Shown here: in pieces, positions 11,729 to 55,301 of the stretch
Position numbering within the stretch: the first letter of the stretch is position 1
Layout: every line of letters starts with the position of its first letter
Assembly: GCA_015065425.1 (NCBI GenBank)
Contig: SVQH01000010.1
Coordinates: 1 to 64,000 of the forward strand
Source of the DNA: Oscillospiraceae bacterium
Lineage (GTDB): Bacteria > Bacillota > Clostridia > Oscillospirales > Acutalibacteraceae
Direction of reading: 5' to 3'
DNA length: 64,000 bases
Position numbers and translations under genes: made by a program
The notes under the pieces: generated by a model
Told to the model about the DNA's origin: nothing
Database searches by the model: none
Seen by the model: the letters and a program-made list of their open reading frames with translations, nothing else

Positions 11729-11760
11729 TTGCACCTCCTATATTATTTTTTGTTTTTAGA

Positions 11761-16100: not shown

Positions 16101-16123
16101 CAAAGACCTCCCTTAATAATAAA

Positions 16124-21197: not shown

Positions 21198-22524
21198 CTG
21201 TACTCATCTCCTTTCGTTCTTCATCATTCATAATTTCATTAATTTTATTCTCAATTTTTGGTTCTTGTTCTTGTATTCTGCCACAGATACGAATTTCCTT
21301 TCTTAATATTTTCATTCTTTCTGTGGCATCAGAAACTGCATTTCTTGCAATACGAATATTATGTTCGTCACCATTGCGAATTGCTACTTTCAACTCATTC
21401 CGAAACTTGTTTCGTTCAACCGTCAATTCAGAAAGCTCTTGTTCACAAGACTTTTTATACTCGTCAACTTGTTCTGATGTTTCCAAATCTTTATCGAGCA
21501 TTAAATTCTGTTGTTCAATAAGTTTGTCAAGTTTACGCATTTCGTCAATAAGATATTTATCAACTTGTCGATTTGCATCGTGATTTTTCTTTACATAAGT
21601 TACAAAATCAATAAAGGTCACATATACTTGACGGCAACTTGGTTCGACAAGTGGCGCAAAAAATTCCTGCACAAGATTTTCTTGTTCAGGAATTTCAACA
21701 CTATATCTTATCCACTTTGACTCTAATTTTCTTTCAATATCTTCAACCCCGTAACCTTCTCCGAGAGTTTTAAATCTTCTCGGTCTTTCAAATTTAGGAT
21801 GAGATATTGTCGGATATTTTCGTTCAAAGTTAAAAGAATATCCAAGTTTTCTCATTTCATTATAAAACGCTCGTAAACTTGTAGTTTTTAAAATGCACTC
21901 ATCAATGTCTCTCTTAATGATTGCATCCTTTGTCCATTCACCGTTTTTCTCTGCTATATATAAATCGTAAGGTTTGCGACTTCGCTTTTTGGGATTTTCG
22001 ATAATAGACAATCCGTATTCTCTGCAAAGTTCATCAGAAATTTGTCGTAATCGTGCATAACTCTCATTATTATCATAATATTTTTTACCGTCCATAAATG
22101 AAACAGAATTTAAAACATAATGGTTATGAAGACAACCTGTGTTAAGATGAGTTGCAACTACAACTTCAAATCTGTCACCAAATGCACGGCGAGCAAATTC
22201 TTTTCCAAGTGCGTGTATTGTTTCAGGTGTTCCTTCTCCCGGAGCAAAGGATTGAATAATATGATAACCAAGAATTTTATCTGTCTTATGAAATTCCTTT
22301 TTTGTTTCTGTCATTTTCTTTAGTGCATTTTCATATCTGCAATTTATTCCATCAACAAAAAATTTCTGTTCCGTTTTCAAATCATCGGCTGTATAATTGA
22401 GGGCATTATGCAAATCTAAAAAAATCTCTTCGTAGTTTTCATTAAGAGTTTTCTTTTTATTGCCGATATATGAAATGGTTTTGTCAAGTCGAGAATGAAT
22501 ATCTTTTATAAAAATTATTCCCAT
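21139..22524 (-). CDS. MobA/VirD2-type relaxase
   Basis: A 461-residue relaxase that nicks oriT and stays attached to the transferred strand. Seen: the histidine metal-binding cluster HLNTGCLHNHYVLNS near residue 125-140, and a candidate catalytic Tyr early on (SYIGNKKKT region, near residue 19). A long coiled, Glu/Lys-rich tail (about 330-460) follows. ATG 22524 overlaps the mobC stop by 10 bases. The order mobC, relaxase, pcfB is standard for MOBP-type elements. Confidence 0.9.
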   Translation of the reverse strand: MGIIFIKDIHSRLDKTISYIGNKKKTLNENYEEIFLDLHNALNYTADDLKTEQKFFVDGINCRYENALKKMTETKKEFHKTDKILGYHIIQSFAPGEGTPETIHALGKEFARRAFGDRFEVVVATHLNTGCLHNHYVLNSVSFMDGKKYYDNNESYARLRQISDELCREYGLSIIENPKKRSRKPYDLYIAEKNGEWTKDAIIKRDIDECILKTTSLRAFYNEMRKLGYSFNFERKYPTISHPKFERPRRFKTLGEGYGVEDIERKLESKWIRYSVEIPEQENLVQEFFAPLVEPSCRQVYVTFIDFVTYVKKNHDANRQVDKYLIDEMRKLDKLIEQQNLMLDKDLETSEQVDEYKKSCEQELSELTVERNKFRNELKVAIRNGDEHNIRIARNAVSDATERMKILRKEIRICGRIQEQEPKIENKINEIMNDEERKEMSTDERFRRCSGTNRENNITGR

Positions 22525-38041: not shown

Positions 38042-38051
38042 TAAAGTGAAT

Positions 38052-41000: not shown

Positions 41001-42527
41001 TGAGAAATGATAACCCGACTTTGTAAATCCGTTGGCTGTCAAATTCTTCGCAACATCGTAGGTCATTGACATAGAAGCTGTTGAACCGCTTGTGCTACCG
41101 TTTCCGTCAAACTTAATAGTGTAAGTGTTTGGAGTCCACTGTGCATAGAGAGTTCTCGTACAATCTCCGGTCTTGATACTTGAATTCAAGTCTGTTGGCT
41201 TAACTGTTGCATCATTTTGGTCAAACAATGTTCCGCCTGTTGTACTTGTTCCCCATTTCGTAAATCTGTAACCTGTTTTATACAGTCCAAAGGTTGAAGC
41301 ATTAACAAGGCCGTCAGCCTTTGTGGAGTTATAAGTCCAAGCCTGATAATACCTTGTACTGTCAGATTCCTTATACACATTCTTTGAAGAAAGGTAATAC
41401 TTTGTGGAATCAATAGAACCACCGTTAGCATTGTAATAAACCTTTAAGTCATAAGGGTCCCACTGTGCATAGAGATTAACCGTTGCACCCTGAGTTGAAG
41501 TAAGGTTTTTAACCGACTGCTTATTAGTGTAGCTTGTACCCGAACCGTTGGCTTTTGTGTTCCACTTAACAAATGAATTACCTGTCTTTGTAAAGCCGTT
41601 TGCAGTAAGGTTTTTAGCAACGCCGTAGGTCATTGTCATAGATGCAGTTGAACCGCCCGTATTCCCGTTACCATTAAACTTAATGGTGTAGGTCTTATTT
41701 GTGGTTTCGTTATATGCAATACCCGCACCGTAACCCTTTGAAATAATGTTATCAAAGGATGCCTTTGATGAACTGCCGATTGCACTTGCTGCAGTCCATA
41801 GACCCTGACCGTCGGGTGTATAAAGTTTATTGGGCCAAATGCGGTTTGTGTAGTTAGAAATAAATCCCCAAGTTTTGGAAGTACCGTTACTTGTACCGCC
41901 TGTACTTGAACCGCCCAATACACTTCGTCCGCAATAAGCTATTTCTGATACTGTCAATGCCTGATATTCACCTGCAAGACAAACATCAAACAGAGGTTCA
42001 ATAATAACCTTGTCTCCGTAGTTCATATTGTTTACACTACCGACACCGAGTTTTGAAAGCACTTTGTTGATATTAGCTTCATAGCTCTGCCAAGTTTCTA
42101 CGCCACTTGGATTAGGAAGTGTAGTTGTAAAACCCATATCCTTTTCCTTATAACAATTTGTTTGGTTATAAGTTGTAGTTAATTTTGCATTTTTGTTTGC
42201 TATAACCTGTTTCTTGTTGTACTTTGTAGAAAATTTTGCGGAAGTAGAATAGGCATTATCACCGTTTGATGTGTTTCTGTAAACATCAATAACTTTAGTG
42301 ACTTTCATACCGCCCGATGAATTAACCGCAGAGAAACGATAACCGACAACACAAGCCGAATCACTTGTGGAACGAATAACATAACCCGTTGAGCTGCCGT
42401 TTACCGCATTTGTACTACCGCCTGCAGAGTCACCGTCCCAAGAGAGGGCAAATGCAGAATACGGTATTGCCGACAGTAAAGTACAAAGAACAAGAAGAAT
42501 TGAAATTATCTTTTTAATAACAATCAT
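38052..42527 (-). CDS. Large secreted protein with InlB/Listeria-Bacteroides repeats
   Basis: A 1491-residue protein. Signal peptide at residues 1-28 (hydrophobic, ending AFALS). An N-terminal region to about 275 follows, then six repeats of about 80-110 residues (about 279-790), each with YTIKFxGNG, a GWNTKADGSG-like core and LYAxW at the end. These are the Flg_new/InlB B-repeat type found in adhesins. The second unit is divergent. The rest consists of several beta-sandwich-like domains to the C-terminus. No LPxTG or membrane anchor is visible, so it is secreted or held non-covalently. It lies next to the pilus module and may aid cell contact. Confidence 0.85.
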   Translation of the reverse strand: MIVIKKIISILLVLCTLLSAIPYSAFALSWDGDSAGGSTNAVNGSSTGYVIRSTSDSACVVGYRFSAVNSSGGMKVTKVIDVYRNTSNGDNAYSTSAKFSTKYNKKQVIANKNAKLTTTYNQTNCYKEKDMGFTTTLPNPSGVETWQSYEANINKVLSKLGVGSVNNMNYGDKVIIEPLFDVCLAGEYQALTVSEIAYCGRSVLGGSSTGGTSNGTSKTWGFISNYTNRIWPNKLYTPDGQGLWTAASAIGSSSKASFDNIISKGYGAGIAYNETTNKTYTIKFNGNGNTGGSTASMTMTYGVAKNLTANGFTKTGNSFVKWNTKANGSGTSYTNKQSVKNLTSTQGATVNLYAQWDPYDLKVYYNANGGSIDSTKYYLSSKNVYKESDSTRYYQAWTYNSTKADGLVNASTFGLYKTGYRFTKWGTSTTGGTLFDQNDATVKPTDLNSSIKTGDCTRTLYAQWTPNTYTIKFDGNGSTSGSTASMSMTYDVAKNLTANGFTKSGYHFSGWNTKADGSGTSYYNKQSVKNLTATHGATITLYAQWDTNSYTIAFDGNGNTGGTTSSMTMKFDVAKNLNKNGYTRTGYTFSKWNTKANGSGTNYTNQQSVKNLTTVNGGTFYLYAQWTPNTYTIKFNGNGATSGSTASMSMTYDVAKNLTANGFKKTGYIFDGWNSNSSGTGTNYTDKQSVKNLTSTNGGTVTLYAKWKPITYTIKFDGNGATGGSTASMSMTYDVAKNLTANGFTRTSYKFIGWNTKADGTGTNYTNKQSVKNLTTTNGATITLYAKWEYDPVLAVNECDIYSGAKSNKTTLFGITTGNVFDDYVYKTDYPTIGDTVWYNIYFPAEKESFKARQYVRYKGGSWTTRDVTLSSSSSSSQWFPVQFTGNYKTITAGQQYFEIEAKTDWIDASGNVKKSGTVKTFYIPIKPVVYRTQVTATGYEGTTVAYNGSAGSSGKLYSGQHIKIAYKYTADNTWSAIEYLRGSMYHYNGSKWATVYTSNDGYDAAKNKVGISKSLPVTLNSSIGTYTVPVTSQNKLRFNLETWWSSDKTHTFEETWYDLPVVKSDVALTKITLVDSSTKATLDSNNLKAGQSVLVRYTYKNNTDVKVYVEGFKNDKTQISGVYAIPANSSITVDGYSFIVPNKRNINIWGGVYLEGMGIYNTDYESNGSNNALTLACKVKHPLTLEPITPNADYRENTEVITSYWLKNSYSDDYTPAEDVSIKFCVYKGSNLIYSYTKTKAIVPGNDINHIYFKWKVPIGFNNADVKITAEIIDDGASYNKVTKYYSTIPYKIVQTPDTQFEKKGPSGFSIPADTSTRGTACEWWEYVYENGKFVQKQYYTGLTSYSIKIEPKNTQTATKSGSTWYMNSGYAITMSLNNGTTASKSGFSTAPADSYTLPQYGVAIFPEYSYSKDSGKITTLVLSGGKWIFSATGSYGNVHFTPLWYPDGNYIVRAELSDMWTPSGMMKKEYKSNTIKIKDSAYDDWYVGR
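40150..41695 (-). repeat. Direct repeats encoding InlB-type units
   Basis: Six tandem coding repeats of about 240-320 bases, four of them very similar at DNA level (units near 40150-40390, 40390-40630, 40630-40870 and 40870-41110). They could recombine and change repeat number. Confidence 0.7.
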
Positions 42528-42547
42528 CTTCCTTTCGTAAAAAATAA

Positions 42548-42571: not shown

Positions 42572-42586
42572 AGTCCGATTTATATT

Positions 42587-43333
42587 TTAATGTGAGTGGC
42601 AGGTCTTACCTTTAACTGATTTACCGCATTCAGGACACTTTGTATCAACTGTAAATCTTACACAAGTATCGCCGGAGCCTGTACCGACTTTCTTGCCACA
42701 TTCCTGACAGTATTCACAAGGGTCACTCTTTGCATTGTAGCTTTCACACTTTGTAGGGTCATAACAAGCATTTCCCCATTCGTCATAAGTGTAGAAACTC
42801 TTACAAGAGTGTGAACCGCAGTGGGGACAGCCTTTGTTTTCAAGACTTACAATAAAGTCATGTGTTTCTTTACTGTCACAATGATGTCCCTTTTTACCGC
42901 AACTGTACTCATTTACACTATCGTTACCGTTATCAATTACCTCATATCTGTTGCCCTGTGATACTCCTGCAGGATTACCCTCAGTTACAGGTTCAGCAGG
43001 TTTAACAGTAGAGGTCTGCTGTGTAGGCTTCTGAGTAGTGGTTACTTTTTCAACTGTTGGTTCTTCAAGTTTAATAACTGTCTCGTTTTTTTCGGTAGTG
43101 CTCTCTGCATTGTCATTTTCTTCTGTGATGTCATCATCAATGACAATATCGCCAACCGTTTCTGCCTGTTCGGTTGTAATATCGGTTGTAGGTTCTTCTG
43201 TGTCCTTGCCGACAAAGTTACCAATCATTACTGCAATAAAGATTGATACTGCAATAATGCCGACTATGAGAGCAGCGATTATTTTGTTGTTTTTGTTTCC
43301 CTTTTTGTTTGGGTTACTTGTAAGAATCATCAT
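42587..43333 (-). CDS. Membrane-anchored protein with C-terminal Cys-rich domain
   Basis: A 248-residue protein. One N-terminal membrane helix (about 20-42), a Thr/Glu-rich stalk (45-125), and a C-terminal region (about 145-248) with five to six Cys pairs (CPHCG, CEYCQECG, CPECG). It is the last gene of the pilus operon. The Cys-rich part would face the outside and could bind metal or form disulfides. AGGAGG precedes the ATG. No family is recognised. Confidence 0.65.
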   Translation of the reverse strand: MMILTSNPNKKGNKNNKIIAALIVGIIAVSIFIAVMIGNFVGKDTEEPTTDITTEQAETVGDIVIDDDITEENDNAESTTEKNETVIKLEEPTVEKVTTTQKPTQQTSTVKPAEPVTEGNPAGVSQGNRYEVIDNGNDSVNEYSCGKKGHHCDSKETHDFIVSLENKGCPHCGSHSCKSFYTYDEWGNACYDPTKCESYNAKSDPCEYCQECGKKVGTGSGDTCVRFTVDTKCPECGKSVKGKTCHSH

Positions 43334-43351
43334 TTTTGTTTCCTCCTGTGA

Positions 43352-43831
43352 TTAAAATTTTTCGGTTAATATTGATGTTACCTCTATGGGTATATTCGCA
43401 GATGGGAACCGATGACCTGCAAACCATAACGGAATTGAAATCGTATAATTTACTACAAGTTCAAGTTCGTTTGCTTCTCGGAAGCTGAGTACGGGTTCTG
43501 TTATGTGATACAGTTCTTTTCCGTCTGCATCATAACTATATAACATTCCGTCCTCTATTTCCAATGTGCAAAATGATATGAGAGATGTGCGAAATTCTTC
43601 AGTATCAATCGCTTCAGTATAGTCATTACCTTGCTTGATACTGTTATATATTTCGGTTGAGTTTTGAGTAAGAAAACTGTCAAGCACAACCTTCGTGTTT
43701 TCTCTCATAAGGTTTACCTTTGATATGGATGCAGAGTAAGTGAATATCATTGCGAATATCATCGCAAATATAAGAATAAAGACACAAGGGACAATATATC
43801 CCTCTGCTTTATTTGATTTTAACAGCTTCAT
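43352..43831 (-). CDS. TadE/TadG-like minor pilin
   Basis: A 159-residue protein. A short basic start then a hydrophobic helix (about 12-32: KAEGYIVPCVFILIFAM), followed by an extracellular domain. The KxEGYI segment before the helix is shared with the next gene and resembles a class III signal of a pseudopilin. It lies directly after the DUF4320 gene in the Tad-like operon. Confidence 0.7.
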   Translation of the reverse strand: MKLLKSNKAEGYIVPCVFILIFAMIFAMIFTYSASISKVNLMRENTKVVLDSFLTQNSTEIYNSIKQGNDYTEAIDTEEFRTSLISFCTLEIEDGMLYSYDADGKELYHITEPVLSFREANELELVVNYTISIPLWFAGHRFPSANIPIEVTSILTEKF

Positions 43832-43840
43832 TTGTTACAC

Positions 43841-44251
43841 CTACTTCCAATACTTTTCCGATATACCTGACCTGTGGCTTGTAACTGTTACGGGTATTCT
43901 GAACATACCAAGACCTTGCACATAGGTCTGCACCGAAACAAAAACATCCATTTGGTCTCCGAGCTGAACACGCTCATAGGTTGCATTGAAATAGCTTTCT
44001 GCATCAGTATCAACCTCAAATTCAAAGAACTGATTTTGAAGGTTCTCAACTCTTTCATCAAACTCGCTGTCAAAACAGCCGTTAAATGTTGCAGTTTCAA
44101 TAAGCTGACCGCTTATCTCATCAAGATCCTGTTTCAGAGTCATAAACTGAAAGATGTTAAGAACAACAACGAGAACCATCATCATAGCAAATATACCGAT
44201 TACAACATCAATATATCCTTCGCCCTTTTTAGATTTAATAAATTTCTTCAT
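43841..44251 (-). CDS. DUF4320 family pilin-like protein
   Basis: A 136-residue protein with the start KKGEGYIDVVIGIFAMMMVLVVVLN, the DUF4320 signature, and an extracellular domain after one helix. ATG 44251 has GGAGG 7 bases upstream and replaces the longer frame to 44296. It probably serves as a minor pilin of the adjacent Tad-like system. Confidence 0.78.
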   Translation of the reverse strand: MKKFIKSKKGEGYIDVVIGIFAMMMVLVVVLNIFQFMTLKQDLDEISGQLIETATFNGCFDSEFDERVENLQNQFFEFEVDTDAESYFNATYERVQLGDQMDVFVSVQTYVQGLGMFRIPVTVTSHRSGISEKYWK

Positions 44252-44264
44252 ATATACACCTCCG

Positions 44265-45137
44265 TTAACCGAACAGAACGCCCATAGAAGAAACAATCTG
44301 AGCGAGAATAACTACGATATATATGAGCATAAAGCAGAAAAGCAGACACATTGAAAGTTTCTTTACCTTTCTCGGTATCTTTTCAGCTTCAAGCCTTAAC
44401 TGCTGTCTTTGAATATCAGCAAACTTCATAGAGAGGGATTTCCAATACACCGTATTGACATCACCTCGGTCAACAGATATAAGTCCTCGGCAAACGTCAC
44501 TCATAAGAGGTGAACCTACTCGTGCTTCAAGTCTTGTGATAGCAACTTCCGTATTACCGGAATGAATATCTGCAGCAGTAATGTCAAGTTCGTGCTTTAT
44601 TTCAGGTCCCGCATTTTTCGCAAAGGACTCAATCATTTCAAGTACGTCCTTACTGTGCATCAAGGACTTTTCAATCTTGAAAACAAATCTCGGAAGTTCA
44701 TATTCAATCTTTGCTCTTTTTGCCCTTATTCGGTTTGAGATGCCCTTCATATTCATTCGGTAAAGAATGAAAGCAAGGAATATGATTATCGGACAAAGTA
44801 TGGGGAAGATAAAGAGAACGGGAATAGCAAATACACCGACAATGAGAGATTTAACAATGGCATTTGCCATAAACATTTCGGGAGTAATATCCATTTGAGC
44901 CGTTCTTAAATCTGATTCCAACTGAGCCTTCTTAAACTCATTCAAACGAATTTTACGGGCAATAAAAGAAGCAACAGATGAAAGCCAAACATCAATACTG
45001 CTTGTTTTCTCTTTCTGTTGCTTTGCAAGGTTATTAACCGCCTTTGATGTTCTCATATACGGAATACGGAAGTGGTCTGCAAGTATCATAAATAAGCCGA
45101 TTCCGCAAAGAACACCGATACAAATTTTTATTATCAT
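44265..45137 (-). CDS. tadC: TadC-like type II secretion F-domain protein
   Basis: A 290-residue polytopic protein. Four membrane helices (near 4-20, 97-115, 118-135 and 262-285) with a cytosolic T2SSF-type helical domain between. It pairs with the TadB protein to form the inner-membrane platform of a Tad pilus. GGAGG precedes ATG 45137. Confidence 0.82.
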   Translation of the reverse strand: MIIKICIGVLCGIGLFMILADHFRIPYMRTSKAVNNLAKQQKEKTSSIDVWLSSVASFIARKIRLNEFKKAQLESDLRTAQMDITPEMFMANAIVKSLIVGVFAIPVLFIFPILCPIIIFLAFILYRMNMKGISNRIRAKRAKIEYELPRFVFKIEKSLMHSKDVLEMIESFAKNAGPEIKHELDITAADIHSGNTEVAITRLEARVGSPLMSDVCRGLISVDRGDVNTVYWKSLSMKFADIQRQQLRLEAEKIPRKVKKLSMCLLFCFMLIYIVVILAQIVSSMGVLFG

Positions 45138-45149
45138 CAGACCGCCTCC

Positions 45150-46073
45150 TTATCTTTTGTATTCTACAGGTTTTGTGAACTTTATCATAAAGAAGTATGT
45201 TACTACTATCACAATACCGCATACACCGAGCACGATTTTACCCGGTGTTTCAAATATGAGTGTATGAAACCAATCTTTATTGAGAACATAAAGCAAAGGT
45301 ATATTACCAACTACAAGACCGACCATTGTGTAGTATTCCGTTCTTACGGCTGACATCATAGTGTTAAGCTCACTGTTTACGATACGAACATCAGTAAGCT
45401 TTGAAACAATAGGCTGTAAGGTATCTTTCATTTCCTGATTGTCCTGGCACTGTATAAGGGTATCAACCCATTCACGGAAGATTTCATCATCAACCTTCTT
45501 TTTAAGGTTATATAGTGCCTGTTTAACACTTGAAGATACCGCCATAGCATCACCAATAAAAGCCGTAAAACATTCTTTAAGTGGTGGCTTGATATGAGGT
45601 AAGTTTTCCTGTACTGCCATAATGATATTACCATCTCTTGAATATGAGGTAGTAATGATAGAGAGTGCAGTTTCAAGTTCTTCCTTTGTCTGCTTTTCAT
45701 AGATGTTTATGATGTTACGAACATAAATAAAGGGTATCATTGCAAATGCTACCGATAAAGCAGGGATAAGGAATACATTATTAATTAAAACAGCAACAAC
45801 AGCACCTACGGCAAACAAGACTAATGCTGCTGAACAAACAAAAGCAAACATTCCTTCTTTGCCACAAGCCTTTAATGCCGATTGCAGATATTCAAGTTTT
45901 GCACCCAAGCCTTTTTTCTTTTTTCCTGCTCTGAGTGCTCTCGCTCTGTCACGAATATTAGGTTTCTTTGATACAACAGAACTTAAATCCTGTGTTATCT
46001 GTTGCGGGGTTAAATTAAGAAAACATACGATTGCTATAATAAGAAATATAGACGCAATCATTGGGAGTATCAT
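45150..46073 (-). CDS. tadB: TadB-like type II secretion F-domain protein
   Basis: A 307-residue protein with helices near 1-20, 75-115 (two) and 245-300 (two), and a cytosolic GSPII_F-like helical bundle. The ATG overlaps the tadA stop by 4 bases. It lies in the standard tadA-tadB-tadC order. Confidence 0.83.
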   Translation of the reverse strand: MILPMIASIFLIIAIVCFLNLTPQQITQDLSSVVSKKPNIRDRARALRAGKKKKGLGAKLEYLQSALKACGKEGMFAFVCSAALVLFAVGAVVAVLINNVFLIPALSVAFAMIPFIYVRNIINIYEKQTKEELETALSIITTSYSRDGNIIMAVQENLPHIKPPLKECFTAFIGDAMAVSSSVKQALYNLKKKVDDEIFREWVDTLIQCQDNQEMKDTLQPIVSKLTDVRIVNSELNTMMSAVRTEYYTMVGLVVGNIPLLYVLNKDWFHTLIFETPGKIVLGVCGIVIVVTYFFMIKFTKPVEYKR

Positions 46074-47383
46074 TCGTAATCAGCTCCCTTCTTTAAGAAT
46101 TTGTTTAATTCCTCCTGTGGTACACCGAACTGCAGGAGTTTTCTTTTGAGATTGTCTGACATAATTTCAGGCTGTTCAAAATAGCCTTCGGTAACATATT
46201 TACCGTTTACGATTTCGTTTTTAGTGATATTGAATCTGAAAAGTGTGTGATAAACTCTATCACCGTTGGGAAGTATCTCACACTCGGAAATATCCATAAT
46301 CTTTCTTTCGTTGTTCTCTAACTTATGAGAGTAAACAACAATAGGGAAAGCCTGACCTGCCTGCATAAGAGAAGTTTTGAAGTCGATGGGGAAACGCTTC
46401 TGACAAAGAAGAGCAATTCGCATATGTGCTGAATCAGCAGCAAATGCGTGAACTGTTGATACAACGGTATGACCTGTAAGACTTGCTTCAACTGCTGAAT
46501 AACATTCAACATCTCGCATCTCACCGACACATACAATATCGGGATTGAAACGAAGTGAAGCTACAACAAGGTCTTCCTGAGTTATATCAAATGCAGGGTT
46601 ATCGGAAGGACGGGAAAGAGTATGGACTACATTGTTTACTACCTTGCCTTTCTTTTTTCGGACAAGTGAAAGTTCTCTTGAACCTGTTTCAATGGTGAAC
46701 ACTCGCTTACCATCGGGAATTGTAGTGAGTAGTGCATTAAGAAGTGTTGTTTTACCTGAACTTGTTGCACCCGCAACAACCATAGAAACACCGTATCGCA
46801 TACACATACAAAGGAAATCAATCATCTTTTCAGTTGCATTACCGGAAGAAATAATCTGCTTTCTGTTAATTCTTGACGGATGCAAAAGACGGATAGAAAC
46901 ACTGACACCCACTTCATCGTCAACAAGAGGTTCTTTGAGTGCCGTAATACGGGTATTATTAGGCAAATGACCTTGCGACATGGGAGTGGAGTTATCAATA
47001 ATCATACCTGAATGATGAAGCAAACGCTTAACAATATCGACAGCGTGTGAAGGAGAATAAAAATGCTCCTTTGCTTTTATTGTTCTACCCGAAGTATAGG
47101 TAATAGCAATATCATTCCAAGCATTGATGTTGATTTCTTCAATGTTATCTCTGCCGAGATATTTGGTAAGAATGGAGTATTCAGCCATTTCAGAATAAAG
47201 TTTATTGCTCAGTTCGGTTTGTGTAAGTCCTTCAACTACATAACCGGTGTCAAGAAGATATTTGTCTATATATGACCTGAGCTGTGGCAATTTACTTGAA
47301 TCAGAAAGTGCCGCCGCATAACGAGAGGAGATATGCTCCTGAATCATCGATAACAGCGGCACAAAATCAATGATTTTCTGCAT
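46070..47383 (-). CDS. tadA: TadA/CpaF-like pilus ATPase
   Basis: A 437-residue hexameric secretion ATPase of the CpaF type. Seen: Walker A GATSSGKTT near residue 205, the Asp box (TIETGSRELSL) and a Walker B-like VCVGEMRDVECYSAVEASLTGH with the trailing HTV-S-TVHA motif. The N-terminal regions N0/N1 are also present. It powers pilin assembly. ACGGAG precedes the ATG. The gene name is the pilus tadA, distinct from the tRNA deaminase tadA at 58372. Confidence 0.9.
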   Translation of the reverse strand: MQKIIDFVPLLSMIQEHISSRYAAALSDSSKLPQLRSYIDKYLLDTGYVVEGLTQTELSNKLYSEMAEYSILTKYLGRDNIEEININAWNDIAITYTSGRTIKAKEHFYSPSHAVDIVKRLLHHSGMIIDNSTPMSQGHLPNNTRITALKEPLVDDEVGVSVSIRLLHPSRINRKQIISSGNATEKMIDFLCMCMRYGVSMVVAGATSSGKTTLLNALLTTIPDGKRVFTIETGSRELSLVRKKKGKVVNNVVHTLSRPSDNPAFDITQEDLVVASLRFNPDIVCVGEMRDVECYSAVEASLTGHTVVSTVHAFAADSAHMRIALLCQKRFPIDFKTSLMQAGQAFPIVVYSHKLENNERKIMDISECEILPNGDRVYHTLFRFNITKNEIVNGKYVTEGYFEQPEIMSDNLKRKLLQFGVPQEELNKFLKKGADYE

Positions 47384-47397
47384 TACTTAATCTCCGT

Positions 47398-47892
47398 TCA
47401 CTTTGATTTTGTTTTCTTAATCTTTTTACCCTTTACAACGCAATATGCAAGAGCAATAGCGGACACGATGAAAGTAGCAACAGCAGGGAAAATCTTTCTT
47501 TTTTCTCCTGTCTGCGGAATTTCAGGGACTTCATCATTTACCGCTTCACTATCATCTTCCACGGTTTCGCCGTCCTCAAGAACTTCAAAAGTAGCACTTT
47601 CAACTTCCTCATTGCTTTCGCTATCTGTATTGTCGGAACCTTCAGCTCCTTCGGAAGATTCAGGCATTGTTGTTTCATCTGCTTCGGTAGATGTTTCCAC
47701 ATCAGTAGTTGCAGTATCGGCATTATTACTCACTTCCTCGGCTGTTGTTTCTTCGGGGATTGTTGTATCTTTTTCGGTTGTTCCTGTTTCGGGAATATTG
47801 GGAGTTTCTTCGTTATTTGCAGCAGAAGCTACAACAGAAGATGCAGTTGCAATAACTGCCATAGCAATAAGGACACCTATAATCTTTTTCAT
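47398..47892 (-). CDS. Sortase-type surface protein
   Basis: A 164-residue protein. Signal peptide (1-24, ending ASA), a Thr/Glu/Ser-rich acidic stalk (about 25-120), then an IPQTG sorting motif (an LPxTG variant), a hydrophobic helix and a basic tail KGKKIKKTKSK. Cell-wall anchoring by a host sortase is expected. It sits inside the Tad-like operon between tadZ and tadA, so it may be a surface spacer or pilus-associated protein. Confidence 0.78.
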   Translation of the reverse strand: MKKIIGVLIAMAVIATASSVVASAANNEETPNIPETGTTEKDTTIPEETTAEEVSNNADTATTDVETSTEADETTMPESSEGAEGSDNTDSESNEEVESATFEVLEDGETVEDDSEAVNDEVPEIPQTGEKRKIFPAVATFIVSAIALAYCVVKGKKIKKTKSK

Positions 47893-47911
47893 TCTGAATT
47901 CTTCCTTTCTC

Positions 47912-48634
47912 TTACATAATCTTGTTTATAATCTTTGAAAGCTCTGTTCGGTACTTTTTATCCTTTGCTCTTTCGTAAAGCAGACCGTCAAGGTGCTGAC
48001 CTCTTATCTGTTTACTGTAAGGCAAAATATATGAAATGTTCTTCACATTGGTTCTTACATCATCAACAGGTGAATAAAGCTCATTTTCGTTCACATTGAG
48101 AATTCTCATTGCTCTTTCAGCATTGTTTCCGAAAAGCTCCTCGTTTGATGCAAGATATACCATACTTTTAAGGTCAGGTGAAAGCACCATAATTACCTCG
48201 TGTGCATTTCTCAATGCTATCTGTGAGATAAGATCATTTTCCTCGTCTGTGCAATCGACAAAGACATATCCTGCCATTTTGTGAAGCACCTCAAAAAGTG
48301 CATTTACCTTATCTTCCGTAAGCGTTGCAAAATCGTATTTGTTTTCTCCCGCCTTGTAACCAAGACAACCGAAGTTGTTCATAGCCTTAACAGTAACAAG
48401 GTGGTTCAGAATATCCTCCTCATAAATATCTGTCTTATCGAACATCGTACCGAGAGAGAAGATACTGTCAGGCGTGTAATTCGGGAATAAAACACCTAAT
48501 GCAGGGACTTTCAAAGAAGGTGAAAGATAAATTACTGCTCCGCTTGTAGTGGCGCAGTAAAGCTCCTGTGCCAATTTCAGAGTAACGGTTGTTTTACCGC
48601 TACCGGGTGAACCGATTACAGCAATAATCTTAGC
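47912..48634 (-). CDS. TadZ/CpaE-like ParA-type ATPase
   Basis: A 240-residue ATPase with a P-loop GSPGSGKTT near residue 7-15, of the MinD/ParA superfamily. Its place after cpaB and before the ATPase gene fits TadZ/CpaE, which positions the pilus machine at the membrane. ATG 48634 has GAGG 9 bases upstream; the longer frame starts with GTG at 48652. The start overlaps the cpaB stop. Confidence 0.78.
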   Translation of the reverse strand, partial: AKIIAVIGSPGSGKTTVTLKLAQELYCATTSGAVIYLSPSLKVPALGVLFPNYTPDSIFSLGTMFDKTDIYEEDILNHLVTVKAMNNFGCLGYKAGENKYDFATLTEDKVNALFEVLHKMAGYVFVDCTDEENDLISQIALRNAHEVIMVLSPDLKSMVYLASNEELFGNNAERAMRILNVNENELYSPVDDVRTNVKNISYILPYSKQIRGQHLDGLLYERAKDKKYRTELSKIINKIM

Positions 48635-49364
48635 CATTCTTATCAGCCTCACTTACATTCTTTTTTGTGAAATAATCGTCCTGTGCTTTAAGAAACTTAT
48701 CTGCAGTAGCATCGTCACCTCGGTAAACGAGAGCAACGTGCATTACTGCACTTTCCTCGTAGTTTGCAAGGATTTTTGCCTGTTCAACAGACACAAGAAC
48801 CGTAATTGTTGTAGGAAGCTCAAAGCTGCCGTCCTCATTTTCAACAACATCGTTTTCATCAATACCGCCTGATGTGGTTGTTGTGATTACTTTGACATAT
48901 TTAAGAGATGCCGGGACTTCTGTGTGGTTATCTTTATCGGTAACATAAATGCTTACAATATCACCGTTTTCGAGCTTACCTGAAAGACCACCCGCAAATG
49001 AGTTTATTGTGATACTCATTGCAACCTTATCACCTTTTAGTGAAGCCATAACATCATTAGCTGTGTTTGCATTATCAGTTACCTTACTTTCGGTTGCAAA
49101 GTCGCCTTTGAATATATCTGCTGTTGCAAATTTACCGACAACTGATTTCTTGTCCTTAATTACCTTTTCGGGGAGTGCAGAATTTGAGATTTTCACAATC
49201 TCAACATCTGTGTCTTTAATCTCTGTTCCGTGAGATACATCAGCAACAAAGCGGACTACCTCCGTTTTCTTATCAGAGATGTTGTTTACAAGGGGTGACA
49301 CAACAAAGGTTACTGCCACCGCAAGAATAATACAGACGATACCTATCGCTGTTCTGTTTTTCAT
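48630..49364 (-). CDS. cpaB: CpaB/RcpC-like pilus protein with SAF domain
   Basis: A 244-residue protein. One N-terminal membrane helix (7-27), then a SAF domain (about 36-110: VRFVADVSHGTEIKD, then VVGKFATADIFKGD) and a RcpC-type region after it. CpaB works in Tad pilus assembly on the outer face. AAAGGAG precedes ATG 49364. Confidence 0.82.
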   Translation of the reverse strand: MKNRTAIGIVCIILAVAVTFVVSPLVNNISDKKTEVVRFVADVSHGTEIKDTDVEIVKISNSALPEKVIKDKKSVVGKFATADIFKGDFATESKVTDNANTANDVMASLKGDKVAMSITINSFAGGLSGKLENGDIVSIYVTDKDNHTEVPASLKYVKVITTTTSGGIDENDVVENEDGSFELPTTITVLVSVEQAKILANYEESAVMHVALVYRGDDATADKFLKAQDDYFTKKNVSEADKNG

Positions 49365-49552
49365 TTCTGTTCAACTCCTTTATTACAAAAATCTCGTTCT
49401 ATTACTTCGGGAGGTGAAGTAACAAAAGTTATAAATGTTCTGTCAAAATCTTTCTTTGACACCGTAAGTTCTTTACCGTTTGAGTAAATGAGCCTTACTT
49501 TGTTTTCATCGATTATTTTCCAATCGGTGAGAAAATCAGGTTCCTTCTTCAT
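49361..49552 (-). CDS. Small hypothetical protein of the pilus operon
   Basis: 63 residues, soluble, no recognised family. AAGGAGG precedes the ATG; it overlaps cpaB by 4 bases and is clearly co-translated with it. Confidence 0.6.
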   Translation of the reverse strand: MKKEPDFLTDWKIIDENKVRLIYSNGKELTVSKKDFDRTFITFVTSPPEVIERDFCNKGVEQK

Positions 49553-49565
49553 TGCTATACCTCCT

Positions 49566-50237
49566 TTAGCAGAAATACATCAGCATAAAGCCAATGCTTA
49601 AATACGGAACGAGTGGAAAAGGTTGGTTTTTCAATTTTTTCTGTTTCTGAATGATTAGATTTACTATCACCGAAACAAACAGACCGATAACAAGACCTGC
49701 TATGCTCTTTGATAAACCAAGCAAGAAAGCACAGGCAGCAGAGAGTTTTACATCTGCTCCGCCAAGTCTGTTTCCGCTTACCATAGCACAGATTAACAAC
49801 ACTCCGCCGATAGCCAAGCCACTGAAAAGCATCATCGGAATATCGGAAAGTGTTACACCTATGAAGCCTGTAATGAATATCAAAACTGAAACGAAATCTT
49901 TAACCTCGTGTGTCTGAATATCTGATACCGAAGCATAGAGTAATATTTGCAAAAGAATAATGCCTTTGAGTAGTTCTATTGACCAACCGAAGGCAATTAG
50001 CAGACTTGACACAAGAATAATACTGATGCAATGATATATTGGGATTTTTTTGCTTTCTTTGTTGTAACCGGGTGTTTTACTGATTACAACTTTTGAAATC
50101 TTGTGAACTGCCAAGTAGAAAAGAAAAATACAAGCGAGCTTCACAATGGTGGTTATAACTTCTTCGGGATTTAGTTCCATTAACCTTTCAGGTGAAATCG
50201 GTCTTATCGGTCCTATTGGTTGTATAAATTTAGTCAT
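49566..50237 (-). CDS. A24-type prepilin peptidase (CpaA/TadV-like)
   Basis: A 223-residue protein with six to seven membrane helices. The two catalytic Asp of type IV prepilin peptidases are visible: VSDIQTHEV near residue 105 and GGADVKL near 157 (GGAD in place of the more common GxGD). It would cleave the leaders of the three pilins just upstream and of the pseudopilins at 43-44 kb. TGAGGA precedes the ATG. Confidence 0.85.
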   Translation of the reverse strand: MTKFIQPIGPIRPISPERLMELNPEEVITTIVKLACIFLFYLAVHKISKVVISKTPGYNKESKKIPIYHCISIILVSSLLIAFGWSIELLKGIILLQILLYASVSDIQTHEVKDFVSVLIFITGFIGVTLSDIPMMLFSGLAIGGVLLICAMVSGNRLGGADVKLSAACAFLLGLSKSIAGLVIGLFVSVIVNLIIQKQKKLKNQPFPLVPYLSIGFMLMYFC

Positions 50238-50259
50238 AGTTATCAGTCCTCACAAATAT

Positions 50260-50286
50260 GGGCGAAGCAGTTTTTCTGCTCCGCCC
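50260..50286 (-). terminator. Hairpin after the last pilin gene
   Basis: Stem GGGCG-AAGCAG with CTGCT-CCGCCC around a T-run loop. It is not followed by a strong T-run, so it may be an mRNA-stabilising or partial terminator. Located between the pilin genes and the prepilin peptidase gene. Confidence 0.6.
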
Positions 50287-50297
50287 GTTTGAATTAT

Positions 50298-50564
50298 TTA
50301 GCCTGCGTAGTTAAAAAGACCTTCGACCTTTTCGGTTACGGTAGGCATAATTGTGTCGTTGAAGAGTGCATAGAGAAGTGTGAGAAGAAGAGCACCGATT
50401 ACAACGGCGATGAGAATCTTGACGCCTGTGTCAACATAGGCTTCAGCAACAGTACCGTCAAGAACTGCGTGAGCCTTTGCTGCCATTGCTGTTTCCTTTG
50501 CTGAAACAAAACCCTTTACCTTGTTTGCTACACCTGTAGCCATTGACTTGATTTTCTTAAACAT
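50298..50564 (-). CDS. DUF6133-type pilin 1
   Basis: An 88-residue protein. A 37-residue Lys-rich leader ends in Gly; then TVAEAYVDTG, then a hydrophobic helix ILIAVVIGALL, then a short tail NYAG. The arrangement Gly, then Glu at +4 before a helix, resembles the Flp/type IV prepilin cleavage site. Nearly identical to the next gene. Probable major pilin of the ICE-encoded Tad-like pilus. Confidence 0.82.
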   Translation of the reverse strand: MFKKIKSMATGVANKVKGFVSAKETAMAAKAHAVLDGTVAEAYVDTGVKILIAVVIGALLLTLLYALFNDTIMPTVTEKVEGLFNYAG

Positions 50565-50602
50565 AATTTTTTACCTCGTTCTTTCTTAATTTTTGTTTTC
50601 GC

Positions 50603-50869
50603 TTAACCTGCGTAGTTGAAAAGTCCCTGAATCTTGCTTGTGACTGTGGGCATAATAGTTGTGTTGAAGAGAGCGTAAAGACCGCCGAGAAGAAGAGCAC
50701 CGATTACAACGGCGATGAGAATCTTAACGCCTGTGTCAACATAGGCTTCAGCAACTGTACCGTCAAGAACTGCATGAGCCTTTGCTGCCATTTCTGTTTC
50801 CTTTGCTGAAACGAAACCCTTTACCTTGTTTGCAACACCTGTTGCGATTGACTTAATCTTGTTAAACAT
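50603..50869 (-). CDS. DUF6133-type pilin 2
   Basis: 88 residues, differing from pilin 1 mainly at scattered positions in the leader and tail; the core VLDGTVAEAYVDTGVKILIA is unchanged. Same leader length, helix and NYAG end. Clearly a recent duplication. A strong ribosome site is not obvious but TTTTTT-free spacing and the shared start region support expression. Confidence 0.82.
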   Translation of the reverse strand: MFNKIKSIATGVANKVKGFVSAKETEMAAKAHAVLDGTVAEAYVDTGVKILIAVVIGALLLGGLYALFNTTIMPTVTSKIQGLFNYAG

Positions 50870-50897
50870 AATTTTTTACCTCTTTCTTAAAAATTTA

Positions 50898-50923
50898 GAG
50901 CACCCGTTTTGTTACGGATGCTC
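50898..50923 (-). terminator. Hairpin between pilin 3 and pilin 2
   Basis: Stem GAGCA (50898-50902) with TGCTC (50919-50923), plus a second short CCGT/ACGG stem inside. Followed on the minus strand by TAAATTTTTA. It may act as a partial terminator between the first pilin gene and the other two. Confidence 0.55.
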
Positions 50924-50954
50924 TTTTGTGATAGATTGTTTGATTTGTTGAGCT

Positions 50955-51212
50955 TTAACCTGCGTAGTTGAAAAGCTCTGTGATTTTCTGTGTGACAGTG
51001 GGCATAATGGTTGAATTGAAGAGAGCGTAAAGACCGCCGAGAAGAAGAGCACCGATAACTACGGCGATGAGAATCTTAACACCGGTATCTACATACGCTT
51101 CTGCGATTGTTCCATTGAGGACTTCGTGTGCCTTCTGAGAAACCTTTTCTGCACAGAAGTCCTTTACTGCCTGAACCTTTGTCTGAATGAATGACTTTGC
51201 TTTGTTAAACAT
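50955..51212 (-). CDS. DUF6133-type pilin 3
   Basis: An 85-residue protein. Its leader differs from the other two (SFIQTKVQAVKDFCAEKVS) but the core VLNGTIAEAYVDTGVKILIA, the helix and the end NYAG are the same. A free Cys in the leader is unique to this copy. It is the first pilin gene of the operon. Confidence 0.82.
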   Translation of the reverse strand: MFNKAKSFIQTKVQAVKDFCAEKVSQKAHEVLNGTIAEAYVDTGVKILIAVVIGALLLGGLYALFNSTIMPTVTQKITELFNYAG

Positions 51213-51239: not shown

Positions 51240-51518
51240 TTAGTTGTTTTTGTTGATTTCCTGCTCATAAGCAGCGAAAAGTGCTTCTTCAAGTTCTTTA
51301 CGAGCCGAAGAAGAAATTGGATGGCATACGGGTCTTGTAACTTCTTCACCCTTTGCTGTCTTCCAACTTGTCATAGGCATAGACATATATCTGCCTTTTT
51401 CGTTTTCGACAACTCCAACGCCGTGAATTACGACTGCATCATCGATAACAATGTTTGCATAAGCTTTTGTAGGCTTATCACCTTTGAGGATTTTCTTGAT
51501 TTCTACTTTGATATTCAT
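51240..51518 (-). CDS. spoVG: SpoVG family DNA-binding protein
   Basis: A 92-residue protein that covers the whole SpoVG family: VEIKKILKGDKPTKAYANIV, then RYMSMPMTSWK, then HPISSSARKELEEAL. SpoVG-like proteins bind DNA and affect transcription; copies near parAB are frequent in ICEs. It likely acts as a regulator of the pilus operon that starts after it; inferred from position only. Confidence 0.9.
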   Translation of the reverse strand: MNIKVEIKKILKGDKPTKAYANIVIDDAVVIHGVGVVENEKGRYMSMPMTSWKTAKGEEVTRPVCHPISSSARKELEEALFAAYEQEINKNN

Positions 51519-51623: not shown

Positions 51624-51689
51624 AAAAGCTATCGAGCTTCTCTTTCCCTGCGTCTCTGTTGGACACGGTTATAGTAGTCGATAGCTTTT
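51624..51689 (-). terminator. Terminator of the parB gene
   Basis: A 12-base perfect stem, AAAAGCTATCGA (51624-51635) with TCGATAGCTTTT (51678-51689), with a 42-base loop that contains the parB stop codon. Followed on the minus strand by TTCTTTTTCCCC. Confidence 0.6.
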
Positions 51690-52582
51690 AATACATATTC
51701 GCACTGTTTTTCTTTTGGAACAGATGCAGGAATTGCTTTTGATATGCGATTATCTCTGAACGGAGATTTTTCCTTTTGATTTGGTTTCTCCTCATCCATA
51801 ATCGTATCAATAACATCCTTTGACAATCTGCCTTGTTCTGCGAATTTTCTCATTCGCAAAGTCTGTGCATGTGAAGGGGTTGCATCTGCAAATTCAATAG
51901 CTTCAAAAAGCCACATTTGTGCTTCAGGAGTGAAATATGAGATTTCAACTGCAGGTCGCATTGCGATTTGCTTTTCATCCACAAGGTCAAGAAGTTCGGG
52001 AATAAGGTTAGTAAGACGAATATATCTGCGGATTTGCTCACGGCTTTCACCGACTTCTTCTGCCAAAATCTCATTTGTCCTGAGTTTTGAAGAATTTGAC
52101 TCCACCGGTGTCAGATTTTCTTTTTTCGGTCTGCCTGCTTGTCTGTTCATTGCTTCCAGACGCATTTTGAAAGCAAACGCCTTCTCTGAGGGTAGAATTT
52201 CATCTCGTTGCAGATTACTGTCCACCATTGAAAGTATAGCTTCATCCATTGTAAGTTCCTGAACTCTTGCAGGTATCTTTTCAATATTTGCAAGTTCAAA
52301 TGCTCTTTTCCTTCGGTGTCCGGACACCATTTCGTATGTCCCGTCATCAAGTGGTCTTACAAGTACGGGTTGAATTAGTCCTCTTGTTTTTATACTTTCA
52401 ACAAGTTCAAACATATTTTCATCGTCTTTAACCTTGTACGGATGGTCAGGGAAATCGTGAATTAAAGAAATGGGGATTTCCATAAGCCTTTCTCTCTTTA
52501 AGTCTTCACGACTTTCGTCCGTTTCAAATAAATCATCGAACGAGTTCAGATGAACTTTTGACACGCTGTCTTGTTTTGCCAT
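51629..52582 (-). CDS. parB: ParB/Spo0J-like partition protein
   Basis: A 317-residue protein. ParB N-domain (about 25-120) with PYKVKDDENMFELVESI, LVRP and the GHRRKRAFELA motif. A helix-turn-helix region (about 170-220, SREQIRRYIRLTNLIPELLDLV). A charged C-terminus. Working with ParA, it would stabilise the excised element. It overlaps parA by 50 bases, and GGAGG lies before ATG 52582. Confidence 0.9.
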   Translation of the reverse strand: MAKQDSVSKVHLNSFDDLFETDESREDLKRERLMEIPISLIHDFPDHPYKVKDDENMFELVESIKTRGLIQPVLVRPLDDGTYEMVSGHRRKRAFELANIEKIPARVQELTMDEAILSMVDSNLQRDEILPSEKAFAFKMRLEAMNRQAGRPKKENLTPVESNSSKLRTNEILAEEVGESREQIRRYIRLTNLIPELLDLVDEKQIAMRPAVEISYFTPEAQMWLFEAIEFADATPSHAQTLRMRKFAEQGRLSKDVIDTIMDEEKPNQKEKSPFRDNRISKAIPASVPKEKQCEYVLKAIDYYNRVQQRRREREAR

Positions 52583-53363
52583 CTCCCATTACCTCCTTCG
52601 TAAAATTCGCATAGGCTTCAGCCACCTTACCGTTTTTATCGTGAAGATAAATGCTTTTGCCTTCTGCCGTTGTTTCAACTGCTCTTATTGAACGGGGAAT
52701 AACAGTGTTAAAAACAGTCGGATATTTACCATACTGTTGTCTTATAAGGCTTTCTAAACCTCTGCCAAACCTTGTGCGATAATCGACCATTGTTATAAGG
52801 ATGCCGTCGATTTTAAGGTCAGGGTTTATTCTCCTTTTTACTCTGTTAATTGTTCCGAGAAGCTGTTCAAGTCCTTTTGCTGATAAAAACTCCGGCGTTG
52901 TAGGTATAATTACACTGTCTGCCGAACATAGAGCATTGAATGTCATCATACCAAGTGAGGGCATACAATCTATAAGGATATAGTCGTATTTGTCCCTTAC
53001 TGTATCAACATAAGTTTTTAACACTCTTTCTCGGCTCATTTCATTTACTAATCGAACTTCAATTCCTGAAAGTTCAATGTTTGAAGGCATAAGGTCAATG
53101 CCTTCGTCTGTTCTTAAAACAGCAAACCCCGATTCAAACTCTTTATCCTCAACAATTCTTTCCATAACATTTGCGAGTGTTGAGTCGAGTTCATCGGGAT
53201 TTTTAACACCTAATGAGAGCGTAAGACTTCCTTGCGGGTCTGCATCAATTATCATTACTTTTTTACCCTGTCGGACAAGTCCTGCTCCCAAATTTGCTGC
53301 TGTTGTAGTTTTTCCTACACCGCCTTTTTGATTTGCGATTGCAATTACTTTGCAATTATTCAA
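52533..53363 (-). CDS. parA: ParA-type partition ATPase
   Basis: A 276-residue ATPase with deviant Walker A KGGVGKTT near residue 13-20 and the IDADPQGS motif after it, typical of ParA. The longer frame starts at ATG 53369, but AGGAGG sits only 1 base before that; the TTG at 53363 has the site 7 bases upstream and is the better start. An 18-base dyad lies 29 bases upstream. It forms the partition operon with parB. Confidence 0.9.
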   Translation of the reverse strand: MNNCKVIAIANQKGGVGKTTTAANLGAGLVRQGKKVMIIDADPQGSLTLSLGVKNPDELDSTLANVMERIVEDKEFESGFAVLRTDEGIDLMPSNIELSGIEVRLVNEMSRERVLKTYVDTVRDKYDYILIDCMPSLGMMTFNALCSADSVIIPTTPEFLSAKGLEQLLGTINRVKRRINPDLKIDGILITMVDYRTRFGRGLESLIRQQYGKYPTVFNTVIPRSIRAVETTAEGKSIYLHDKNGKVAEAYANFTKEVMGDGKTRQRVKSSSELVR

Positions 53364-53391
53364 GTGCATTCCTCCTAATAGTTAATTGCTA

Positions 53392-54186: not shown

Positions 54187-54187
54187 A

Positions 54188-55226: not shown

Positions 55227-55301
55227 TGGCACCCCCTGCGAGAATCGAACTCACATCTAATCCTTAGGAGGGATTTATTCTATCCATTGAACTAAGGAGG
55301 C
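55227..55301 (-). tRNA. tRNA-Arg (anticodon CCU)
   Basis: A complete cloverleaf on the minus strand. Acceptor GCCTCCT pairs with AGGGGGT (two G-U pairs), D-arm GTTC-GAAT, anticodon stem AATCC/GGATT with loop CTCCTAA (anticodon CCT), T-arm GTGAG/CTCGC with TTCGATT, encoded CCA. Its terminator follows at 55181. Confidence 0.92.

Follow-up and report, generated by a model that had tools for sequence, protein, structure and literature searches.

The presence of pilus genes on a clostridial conjugative element raises the question of whether such a pilus serves DNA transfer or is carried for some other purpose. The locus concerned lies in a 64,000-nucleotide stretch of an Oscillospiraceae genome (GenBank assembly GCA_015065425.1, contig SVQH01000010.1, positions 1 to 64,000), referred to below as the window, in which positions 43352-51212 of the minus strand encode a Tad-type pilus module. 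We propose, with a probability of roughly 0.6, that this module specifies an accessory mating-contact pilus of the conjugative element that carries it. All of its named genes are present as open frames, given here in gene order; conservation is expressed relative to 29 regions, all picked for TadA, which comprise the window, 25 genome regions and 3 plasmids.

50955..51212, minus strand: DUF6133 pilin 1 (DUF6133 2.3e-27), with a conserved processing-type motif, [A/G]↓E-x-x-x-D
50603..50869, minus strand: DUF6133 pilin 2 (DUF6133 2.9e-26), [A/G]↓E-x-x-x-D motif
50298..50564, minus strand: DUF6133 pilin 3 (DUF6133 9e-25), [A/G]↓E-x-x-x-D motif
49566..50237, minus strand: A24 prepilin peptidase, TadV-like (Peptidase_A24 5e-10, above cut-off)
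49361..49552, minus strand: 63-residue open frame, with a relative in 0 of the 28 other regions
48630..49364, minus strand: CpaB/RcpC (RcpC 1.3e-10, above cut-off; SAF 7.7e-5; TIGR03177 2.3e-19, slightly below cut-off)
47912..48652, minus strand: TadZ-like P-loop ATPase (weak MinD/BcsQ-type matches), between CpaB and TadA in the surveyed regions
47398..47892, minus strand: small sortase-substrate-like protein
46070..47383, minus strand: TadA/CpaF motor ATPase (T2SSE 1e-30)
45150..46073, minus strand: TadB-like membrane protein, by position, size and hydrophobic segments
44265..45137, minus strand: TadC-like membrane protein (T2SSF in 9 of 23 relatives, best 8.5e-5)
43841..44251, minus strand: DUF4320 protein, candidate TadE-like minor pilin (DUF4320 8.4e-26; KKG↓EGYIDV, then a hydrophobic segment)
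43352..43831, minus strand: TadF-like minor pilin candidate (one N-terminal hydrophobic segment after NKAEGYI; conserved place)

The T2SSE, RcpC, Peptidase_A24 and DUF6133 matches, together with ParA-type and ParB_N matches beside the module, bear out a sequence-only reading of this DNA that had placed TadA, CpaB, an A24 peptidase and three pilins next to parAB. T2SSE was matched by all 16 aligned TadA relatives, and a profile of these 16, compared with solved structures, found CpaF (8rkd) as its best match at 4.4e-37 and VirB11-like proteins at 9e-22. The alternative that the motor is a VirB11-like ATPase of the type IV secretion system (T4SS) was rejected, because CpaF is the better match and because TadB/TadC-like proteins, CpaB, an A24 peptidase and pilins lie alongside; the VirB11 equivalog model gave 125 bits against a cut-off of 249.95. 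The labels TadB and TadC are tentative, the former being given by position, size and hydrophobic segments, and neither window protein reached a Pfam family above cut-off. At E 0.01, T2SSF was matched by 9 of 23 TadC relatives, none of them beyond doubt, and by 0 of 22 TadB relatives, for which there was no Pfam match; the TadB and TadC profiles showed weak similarity to each other (probability 18%).

Across 39 aligned pilin rows, E (+1) and D (+5) are invariant around a G or A, and the leader is variable. Among 137 distinct short pilins, the pattern [GA][ED]xxxD[ST] fits 114, with a median leader of 28 and a median mature part of 48 residues, and even a looser form fails in 17. The pilins gave no match to the Flp family, matching DUF6133 instead, and the pilin profile found chance matches only among solved structures (E 0.2 or worse). 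The scanned window proteins include no outer-membrane secretin, a component expected in the diderm form only; the module can be called complete only where the host lacks an outer membrane. The protein at 47398-47892, earlier taken for a sortase-type protein, combines a hydrophobic segment near its N terminus with an IPQTG motif, a membrane segment at the C-terminal end and a tail of basic residues, i.e., the features of a sortase substrate and not of a sortase; it appears private to the window's element, with a relative found in 0 of the 28 other regions. At E 1e-15, no second TadA was found in the window's genome.

The element that carries the module also encodes conjugation proteins.

21139..22524, minus strand: relaxase (Relaxase 4.5e-40)
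17603..19450, minus strand: VirD4-like coupling protein, CD1115 family (T4SS-DNA_transf 1.4e-63; NF045973 7.2e-158, above cut-off)
17252..17599, minus strand: VirB2-like protein (T4SS_pilin 2.8e-4, TrbC 8.3e-4, NCBIfam VirB2 1.9e-4; all below cut-off)
15258..16103, minus strand: VirB6-like protein (TrbL_2 2.2e-4, below cut-off)
14866..15240, minus strand: PrgI, VirB3-like (PrgI 2.2e-29)
12567..14939, minus strand: VirB4-like ATPase, CD1110 family (NF045971 7.5e-297, above cut-off)
9674..11734, minus strand: M23 peptidase, the T4SS wall hydrolase (Peptidase_M23 1.7e-34)

By the curated cut-offs, VirD4 and VirB4 belong to the families of the CD1115/CD1110-type integrative and conjugative elements (ICEs), which we take to be Tn1549-like. 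That the module travels with conjugation genes, as had been read from the letters alone, is thus confirmed by the CD1115-family VirD4, the CD1110-family VirB4 and the relaxase, the pilus module and the relaxase gene lying approximately 24 kb apart. We class the element as an ICE because it combines these genes with chromosome-type genes and a tRNA-Arg on its right side; its left end lies beyond the 81,919-bp contig, and no integrase was found among 39 scanned window proteins, a scan in which small frames were only partly covered. As a separate observation, the small VirB2-like membrane protein (17252-17599) follows VirD4, and the same arrangement recurs in related loci; a 2025 T4SS review, in the excerpt available, describes VirB2 as absent from Gram-positive T4SSs except those of Patescibacteria (PMC12857230).

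The block recurs widely. Profiles of A24, CpaB, a TadZ/ParA-type ATPase, TadA and TadB matched in 29/29 regions, TadC in 28, VirD4 in 27 and VirB4 in 25, while a short DUF6133-type pilin was present in 25/29 and the secreted protein encoded next to the module (38052-42527) in 22/29. A second set of 81 loci consisted of the best 80 of 492 relatives in named genomes plus one viral-collection contig. In loci with at least 4 kb upstream, a pilin was found in 56/57, A24 in 54/57 and a SpoVG-type gene in 43/57; ParB was present in 17 of 48 loci with at least 6.5 kb upstream, and relatives of the C-terminal part of the secreted protein followed TadA in 41 of 47 loci with at least 6.5 kb of room. Because the iterated profiles mix up ParA and TadZ, and likewise DUF4320 proteins and DUF6133 pilins, these labels are to be read together with position and length. 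Individual elements hold one to four DUF6133 pilins, and window-like elements keep the order par-SpoVG-pilin. Since the gene order recurs in 28 other regions and across most of this second set, it is not due to chance.

Plasmids carry the module too. The window's TadC matched 6 of 72,556 plasmid records, and the same six lead the TadA matches listed; VirB4 is present in 6/6 and VirD4 in the fetched stretch of 4. In Terrisporobacter pTPHSE1, VirD4 follows within approximately 1 kb after the pilus genes, then a pLS20_p028-type protein and, further on, a MobP2 relaxase. PLSDB calls all six plasmids non-mobilizable (NZ_CP154620, NZ_CP037841, CP141730, OY725878, NZ_CP067354 and NZ_CP067350), even though VirB4 is present in each, VirD4 in most, and a relaxase annotated as MobP2 in one. 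An origin from a phage or satellite was rejected: a viral contig collection gave 0 matches with the single protein and 1 contig with the alignment, and this contig (L273, from IMG/VR), which carries VirB4 and M23, resembles a piece of an ICE that was catalogued as viral. TadA also matched 15 "phage" records, of which 12 are unannotated "Bacteriophage sp." contigs. The phage- or virus-labelled records MT838484, MT835617, MT836463, MT837158, MT837304 and L273, mostly from human faeces, carry this TadA lineage at 38-47% identity.

The association of TadA with VirD4 was surveyed in an order sample of 245 genomes, extended by the DUF6133-positive genomes of a 398-genome phylum sample; TadA rows were accepted at E <= 1e-15, and linkage was defined as VirD4 within 50 kb on the same contig. 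DUF6133 was found in 21/245 order-sample genomes (20 above cut-off) and in 16/398 phylum-sample genomes, including the window's own, and VirD4 in 93/245 order-sample genomes. TadA occurred in 37/245 genomes as 46 rows, comprising 28 at 32-100% identity (the closer group), 17 at 26-30% (the distant group) and 1 fragment, and the phylum rows, drawn only from genomes picked for DUF6133, added 24 closer and 15 distant ones. VirD4 was linked to 34 of 52 closer-group places (14/28 in the order and 20/24 in the phylum sample) as opposed to 0 of 32 distant ones (0/17 and 0/15), for which approximately 1.5 were expected by chance; the contrast has a nominal Fisher p of 1.9e-10, or 2.5e-4 for the order alone, values that near-copies make too small. 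Excluded before counting were a DUF6133 match in G007 (E 9.9e-4, below cut-off, inside a 2632-residue frame, with no TadA), the G214 TadA fragment, two G599:C54 pieces and TadA-type rows weaker than E 1e-15. The figure of 0/32 is valid only for rows at or below 1e-15, since weaker rows in G449 (two) and G498 lie within 12 kb of VirD4 and form the second Tad lineage described below; among the linked places, G449:1328644 counts a VirD4 probably of a neighbouring module, and G194 counts a VirD4 fragment. At the level of genomes, the window's TadA lineage was present in 24/245, and VirD4 accompanied it in 20 of these 24 compared to 73 of the 221 others. The sequence-only reading had named an equal frequency in chromosomes without conjugation genes as the adverse outcome, and the contrast between 34/52 and 0/32 runs the other way.

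In a TadA tree of 74 rows, one branch separates 56 element-type from 18 distant rows (support 100/99). Within the elements, the distances between TadA proteins are correlated with the VirD4 distances (r 0.82, 26 elements, 0/5000 permutations, six VirD4 groups) and with the VirB4 distances (r 0.84, 23 elements, 0/5000 permutations). The module genes are under purifying selection: compared with two relatives, L195 and L196, the ratio of nonsynonymous to synonymous substitution rates (dN/dS) was 0.04-0.09 for CpaB, TadZ, TadA, TadB and TadC, i.e., 0.04 and 0.08 for TadA, 0.04 and 0.06 for CpaB and 0.05-0.06 for TadB and TadC, with 0.06-0.11 for the pilins (L195) and 0.09-0.10 for the secreted protein; in these comparisons dS was often above 1, and infinite for ParB. 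Separately, broken TadA genes with split frames or an internal stop occur in some copies (L240, L241 and G217:C96).

A Tad-bearing element has also moved recently and intact. The genomes G092 and G608 (contig C20), the former in the window's family and the latter sharing only its phylum, have 33,559 bp in common at 99.988% identity, including the pilus module, VirB4, M23 and VirD4, and the shared part starts directly after a tRNA-Ser(CGA) in one and a tRNA-Asp(GTC) in the other. The same element end is found in G100, from elsewhere in the order (99.98% over 12,249 bp and 99.94% over 1,753 bp), after a tRNA-Ser(GCT). As the flanks of the shared element differ, the insertions differ; these are draft genomes, in which contig misbinning is possible. 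A close relative of the window's own element, L230, has 92-97% DNA identity in its main blocks and a tRNA Val-Asp-Gly-Cys cluster in its vicinity; the two sequences cease to be similar at window position 53,582, and the window's tRNA-Arg is at 55,227.

A second Tad module was found beside a related T4SS. In two G449 rows and one G498 row, which belong to the same genus (loci L312, 11590-18523; L310/L311; L313), genes for CpaB, TadZ, TadA, TadB, TadC, a DUF4320-like protein, TadF and A24 stand directly after the T4SS M23 gene. Their TadA is 23-25% identical to that of the window, as against 67% for VirD4, 62-64% for VirB4, 71-73% for VirB6 and 54-58% for PrgI of the adjoining T4SS, and a tree of 47 rows places it apart from the 26 rows of the window's lineage (100/100), with a warning as to long branches. 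The protein in the TadB position of L312 matches T2SSF at 2.1e-7. An EAL-domain protein (4.3e-37) lies beside this module in L312 and hints at control by cyclic di-GMP.

Linkage to the T4SS, co-inheritance, recent movement and the second Tad module beside a related T4SS fit a transfer-related role. In the mechanism that we propose, a single-membrane (monoderm) Tad-type pilus would belong to the conjugative element and not to the host. The DUF6133 prepilins and the DUF4320/TadF-like minor pilins would be cut by the A24 peptidase behind G/A, and the CpaF-type ATPase with the TadB/TadC-like proteins would build a thin pilus, probably an extendable surface thread, which the TadZ-like ATPase would place. 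Retraction is proposed by analogy with CpaF; excerpts of two papers describe the Tad motor as bifunctional (PMC12019362, PMC11300603). The secreted repeat protein, a candidate pilus-tip or surface partner, may act at the end of the pilus or on the cell surface. The separate VirD4/VirB4 T4SS would move the DNA once the pilus had reached a recipient and drawn it near.

Several observations weigh against this reading. The distance correlations of TadA with VirD4 and VirB4 may include an effect of host descent, and most of the 29 regions were picked for a nearby VirD4, so that the VirD4 count there is not independent evidence. Neither are the surveyed places and their p-values, given the near-copies G313/G332/G419, G092/G100/G608:C20 and G085/G125/G194. 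VirD4 is missing from 4 of the 24 genomes with this TadA lineage (G076, G081, G100 and G235), and 18 of 52 places are unlinked, most such contigs ending nearby. Of eight unlinked contigs that were re-read, G329:C4 holds VirB4 and an M23 gene and the G100 place is a copy of the element that carries VirD4 in G092, while G085:C4 (55.5 kb, with TadA mid-contig) shows no T4SS gene by the profiles used; in the others the contig or fetched stretch stops near the module. Pilin dN/dS between L196 and the window was 0.27-0.34. Finally, ten high-scoring VirD4 loci were picked for long contigs and no known Tad; in the eight that had 20 kb on both sides, TadA, TadB, TadC, CpaB and A24 were found at E 1e-5 in 0/8, and two of these eight have a VirD4 69-70% identical to that of the window. 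Since a T4SS of this type persists without Tad in all eight loci, the pilus is accessory, and its being an obligate part of this T4SS was rejected. One T4SS type is thus seen with the first Tad lineage, with the second and with none, a pattern that fits an accessory contact module and opposes an obligate channel, and with which carriage as cargo is also compatible. The earlier suggestion of a mating-contact role accordingly gains from VirD4 linkage, co-inheritance, recent movement and the second module, and loses from the eight related loci, by which this T4SS type in general does not need the pilus.

The main rival holds that the module is cargo for the benefit of the host, namely a colonisation adhesin for gut wall, feed particles or biofilm that plays no role in DNA transfer. 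Adhesion is the best-known function of Tad pili (PMC5696575, in excerpt), the record titles of close relatives name gut bacteria for many of the hosts, and a gut adhesin carried as cargo would show conservation too; the existence of related T4SSs without Tad and the approximately 24 kb between module and relaxase gene in the window point the same way. Cargo is usually exchanged freely, however, yet TadA distances track VirD4 and VirB4, the TadA lineage is separate from other Tad systems, and linkage of the block extends over six groups of VirD4. Relatives also occur in soil and sediment clostridia (Desulfosporosinus and Clostridium manihotivorum, by record titles), and the pilus genes of pTPHSE1 run directly into VirD4. 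We consider the cargo explanation possible but unlikely.

That the Tad machine might itself belong to the path by which DNA crosses the thick wall, with VirD4/VirB4 at the membrane, seems very improbable for the window's element, which has its own VirB6-like, PrgI, VirB4 and M23 genes and a T4SS whose relatives manage without Tad. Such a path has been proposed for the type IV pilus of PAPI-1, which according to the excerpted review is essential for transfer in a system where only VirB4/VirD4 are clear T4SS parts (PMC12857230), and in several of the elements with Tad the window-based profiles had no match for VirB6 or PrgI, which may reflect divergence only. We give scarcely any credence to a short pseudopilus that would export the repeat protein or import DNA: excerpts of two papers report that a Micrococcus luteus tad locus is needed for transformation (PMC5696575; also PMC4322843), but the repeat protein has an ordinary signal-like segment, so that pilus-dependent export is not required, and the number of DUF6133 pilins, one to four in each element, points to a true filament.

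The limits of the module should be drawn more widely, to 38052 so as to include the secreted protein and, in window-like elements, to 53369 so as to include SpoVG, ParB and ParA. The neighbouring features are as follows.

55227..55301, minus strand: tRNA-Arg(CCT), past the par end, a candidate insertion site
52533..53369, minus strand: ParA partition ATPase (AAA_31 2.4e-60), upstream end of the syntenic block in window-like elements
51629..52582, minus strand: ParB (ParB_N 1.9e-20, HTH_ParB 1.1e-6)
51240..51518, minus strand: SpoVG-like protein, a possible regulator (SpoVG 5.6e-20)
42587..43333, minus strand: 248-residue membrane-anchored Cys-rich protein, with a relative in 3/29 regions, window included
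38052..42527, minus strand: 1491-residue secreted protein, the tip candidate (Flg_new/List_Bact 9e-38, five stretches)

The secreted protein starts with an ordinary hydrophobic signal-like segment and has conserved ends, between which lie List_Bact stretches built of 243-nt repeats. Its relatives range from 459 to 1537 residues, with the C-terminal part recognised in 44 and the N-terminal part in 15, and List_Bact-type repeats are absent from those of G019 and G076. The conserved C-terminal end found no Pfam family (one stray match among 39 members). A shufflon at this gene was rejected, there being 0 inverted repeat pairs in 36000-43400 with the settings used.

At the right side of the element, no second copy of the 3' part of the tRNA-Arg, as would mark an attachment (att) site, was found in the assembly. 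A degenerate second copy of the middle part of this tRNA lies beside the intact gene at approximately 55382-55425, perhaps a trace left by an older insertion. Positions 53969-54300 of the plus strand, which lie between the par end and the tRNA, hold remnants of another mobilisation module (NikA/MobC-like, relaxase start). Inside the element, 26534-35707 encodes a 3057-residue protein that matches MutS_I, SNF2 helicase and, weakly, Eco57I methylase.

As to how clostridial ICEs find recipients, this lineage of element-borne pili is a direct and testable candidate, and the conserved secreted partner protein is a possible target for limiting transfer. A bolder proposal, which we regard as improbable, is that clostridial elements recruited Tad at least twice as retractable mating pili, with an exchangeable tip that decides which recipients are reached, and that certain T4SS types also use the Tad machine in the DNA path across the wall; if true, the pilus-free view of Gram-positive conjugation would fail for a large set of elements. 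In its excerpt, the 2025 T4SS review presents Gram-positive systems as having no conjugative pili, Patescibacteria aside, and does not name Tad (PMC12857230). In a search confined to one literature collection, Tad pili of clostridial ICEs were the subject of no paper, and 0 papers contained DUF6133 or DUF4320 as whole words. Excerpts of other papers report CpaB, CpaE, CpaF and par genes on a Clostridioides difficile contig suspected to be a new plasmid (PMC5337907) and, in a study of type IV filament evolution, Tad as the most often plasmid-borne of the systems compared (PMC6668835).

Compared with known Tad/Flp systems (type IVb or IVc), the window's module shares the CpaF-type ATPase, CpaB, A24 peptidase and, tentatively, the TadZ-like ATPase and TadB/TadC-like proteins, as well as small pilins with a long leader and approximately 48 mature residues; it differs in its DUF6133 pilin with G/A↓E-x-x-x-D in place of the classical G↓xxxxEY, in a block without a secretin, in a TadA clade of its own and in being part of conjugative elements. 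The CD1115/CD1110-type ICEs have the same VirD4/VirB4 families, PrgI, VirB6-like protein, relaxase and M23, but a Tad module lies within 20 kb in 0/8 of the related loci sampled. In Cutibacterium acnes, Gram-positive linear plasmids likewise carry tad genes, beside VirB4-, TcpC- and FtsK-like genes; this locus, set apart here by description and not by sequence, belongs to Actinobacteria and has TadE-type pilin candidates, and its authors, in the excerpt available, raised the question of a tad role in transfer and gave no answer. A T4SS pilus has been proposed in monoderm Patescibacteria as well (PMC12857230, in excerpt), with VirB2-type rather than Tad pilins and an essential role in epibiotic growth, and the Kil (Tad) pilus of Myxococcus xanthus has exchangeable tips and contacts another bacterium (PMC12075869, in excerpt), but for predation, with minor-pilin tips and in a diderm host. 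Functional parallels are the thin pili of R64 and TP114 and the pilus of PAPI-1, type IV pili carried with a T4SS on a mobile element, which according to excerpts of two papers serve transfer and whose adhesive tip is proposed to choose recipients (PMC9045228, PMC12857230); the window's version is a Tad-type machine in monoderm hosts, without shufflon-like inverted repeats at its tip candidate. The partnership of a pilus with a conjugative T4SS is therefore already known, and its Tad-type form in clostridial elements is new.

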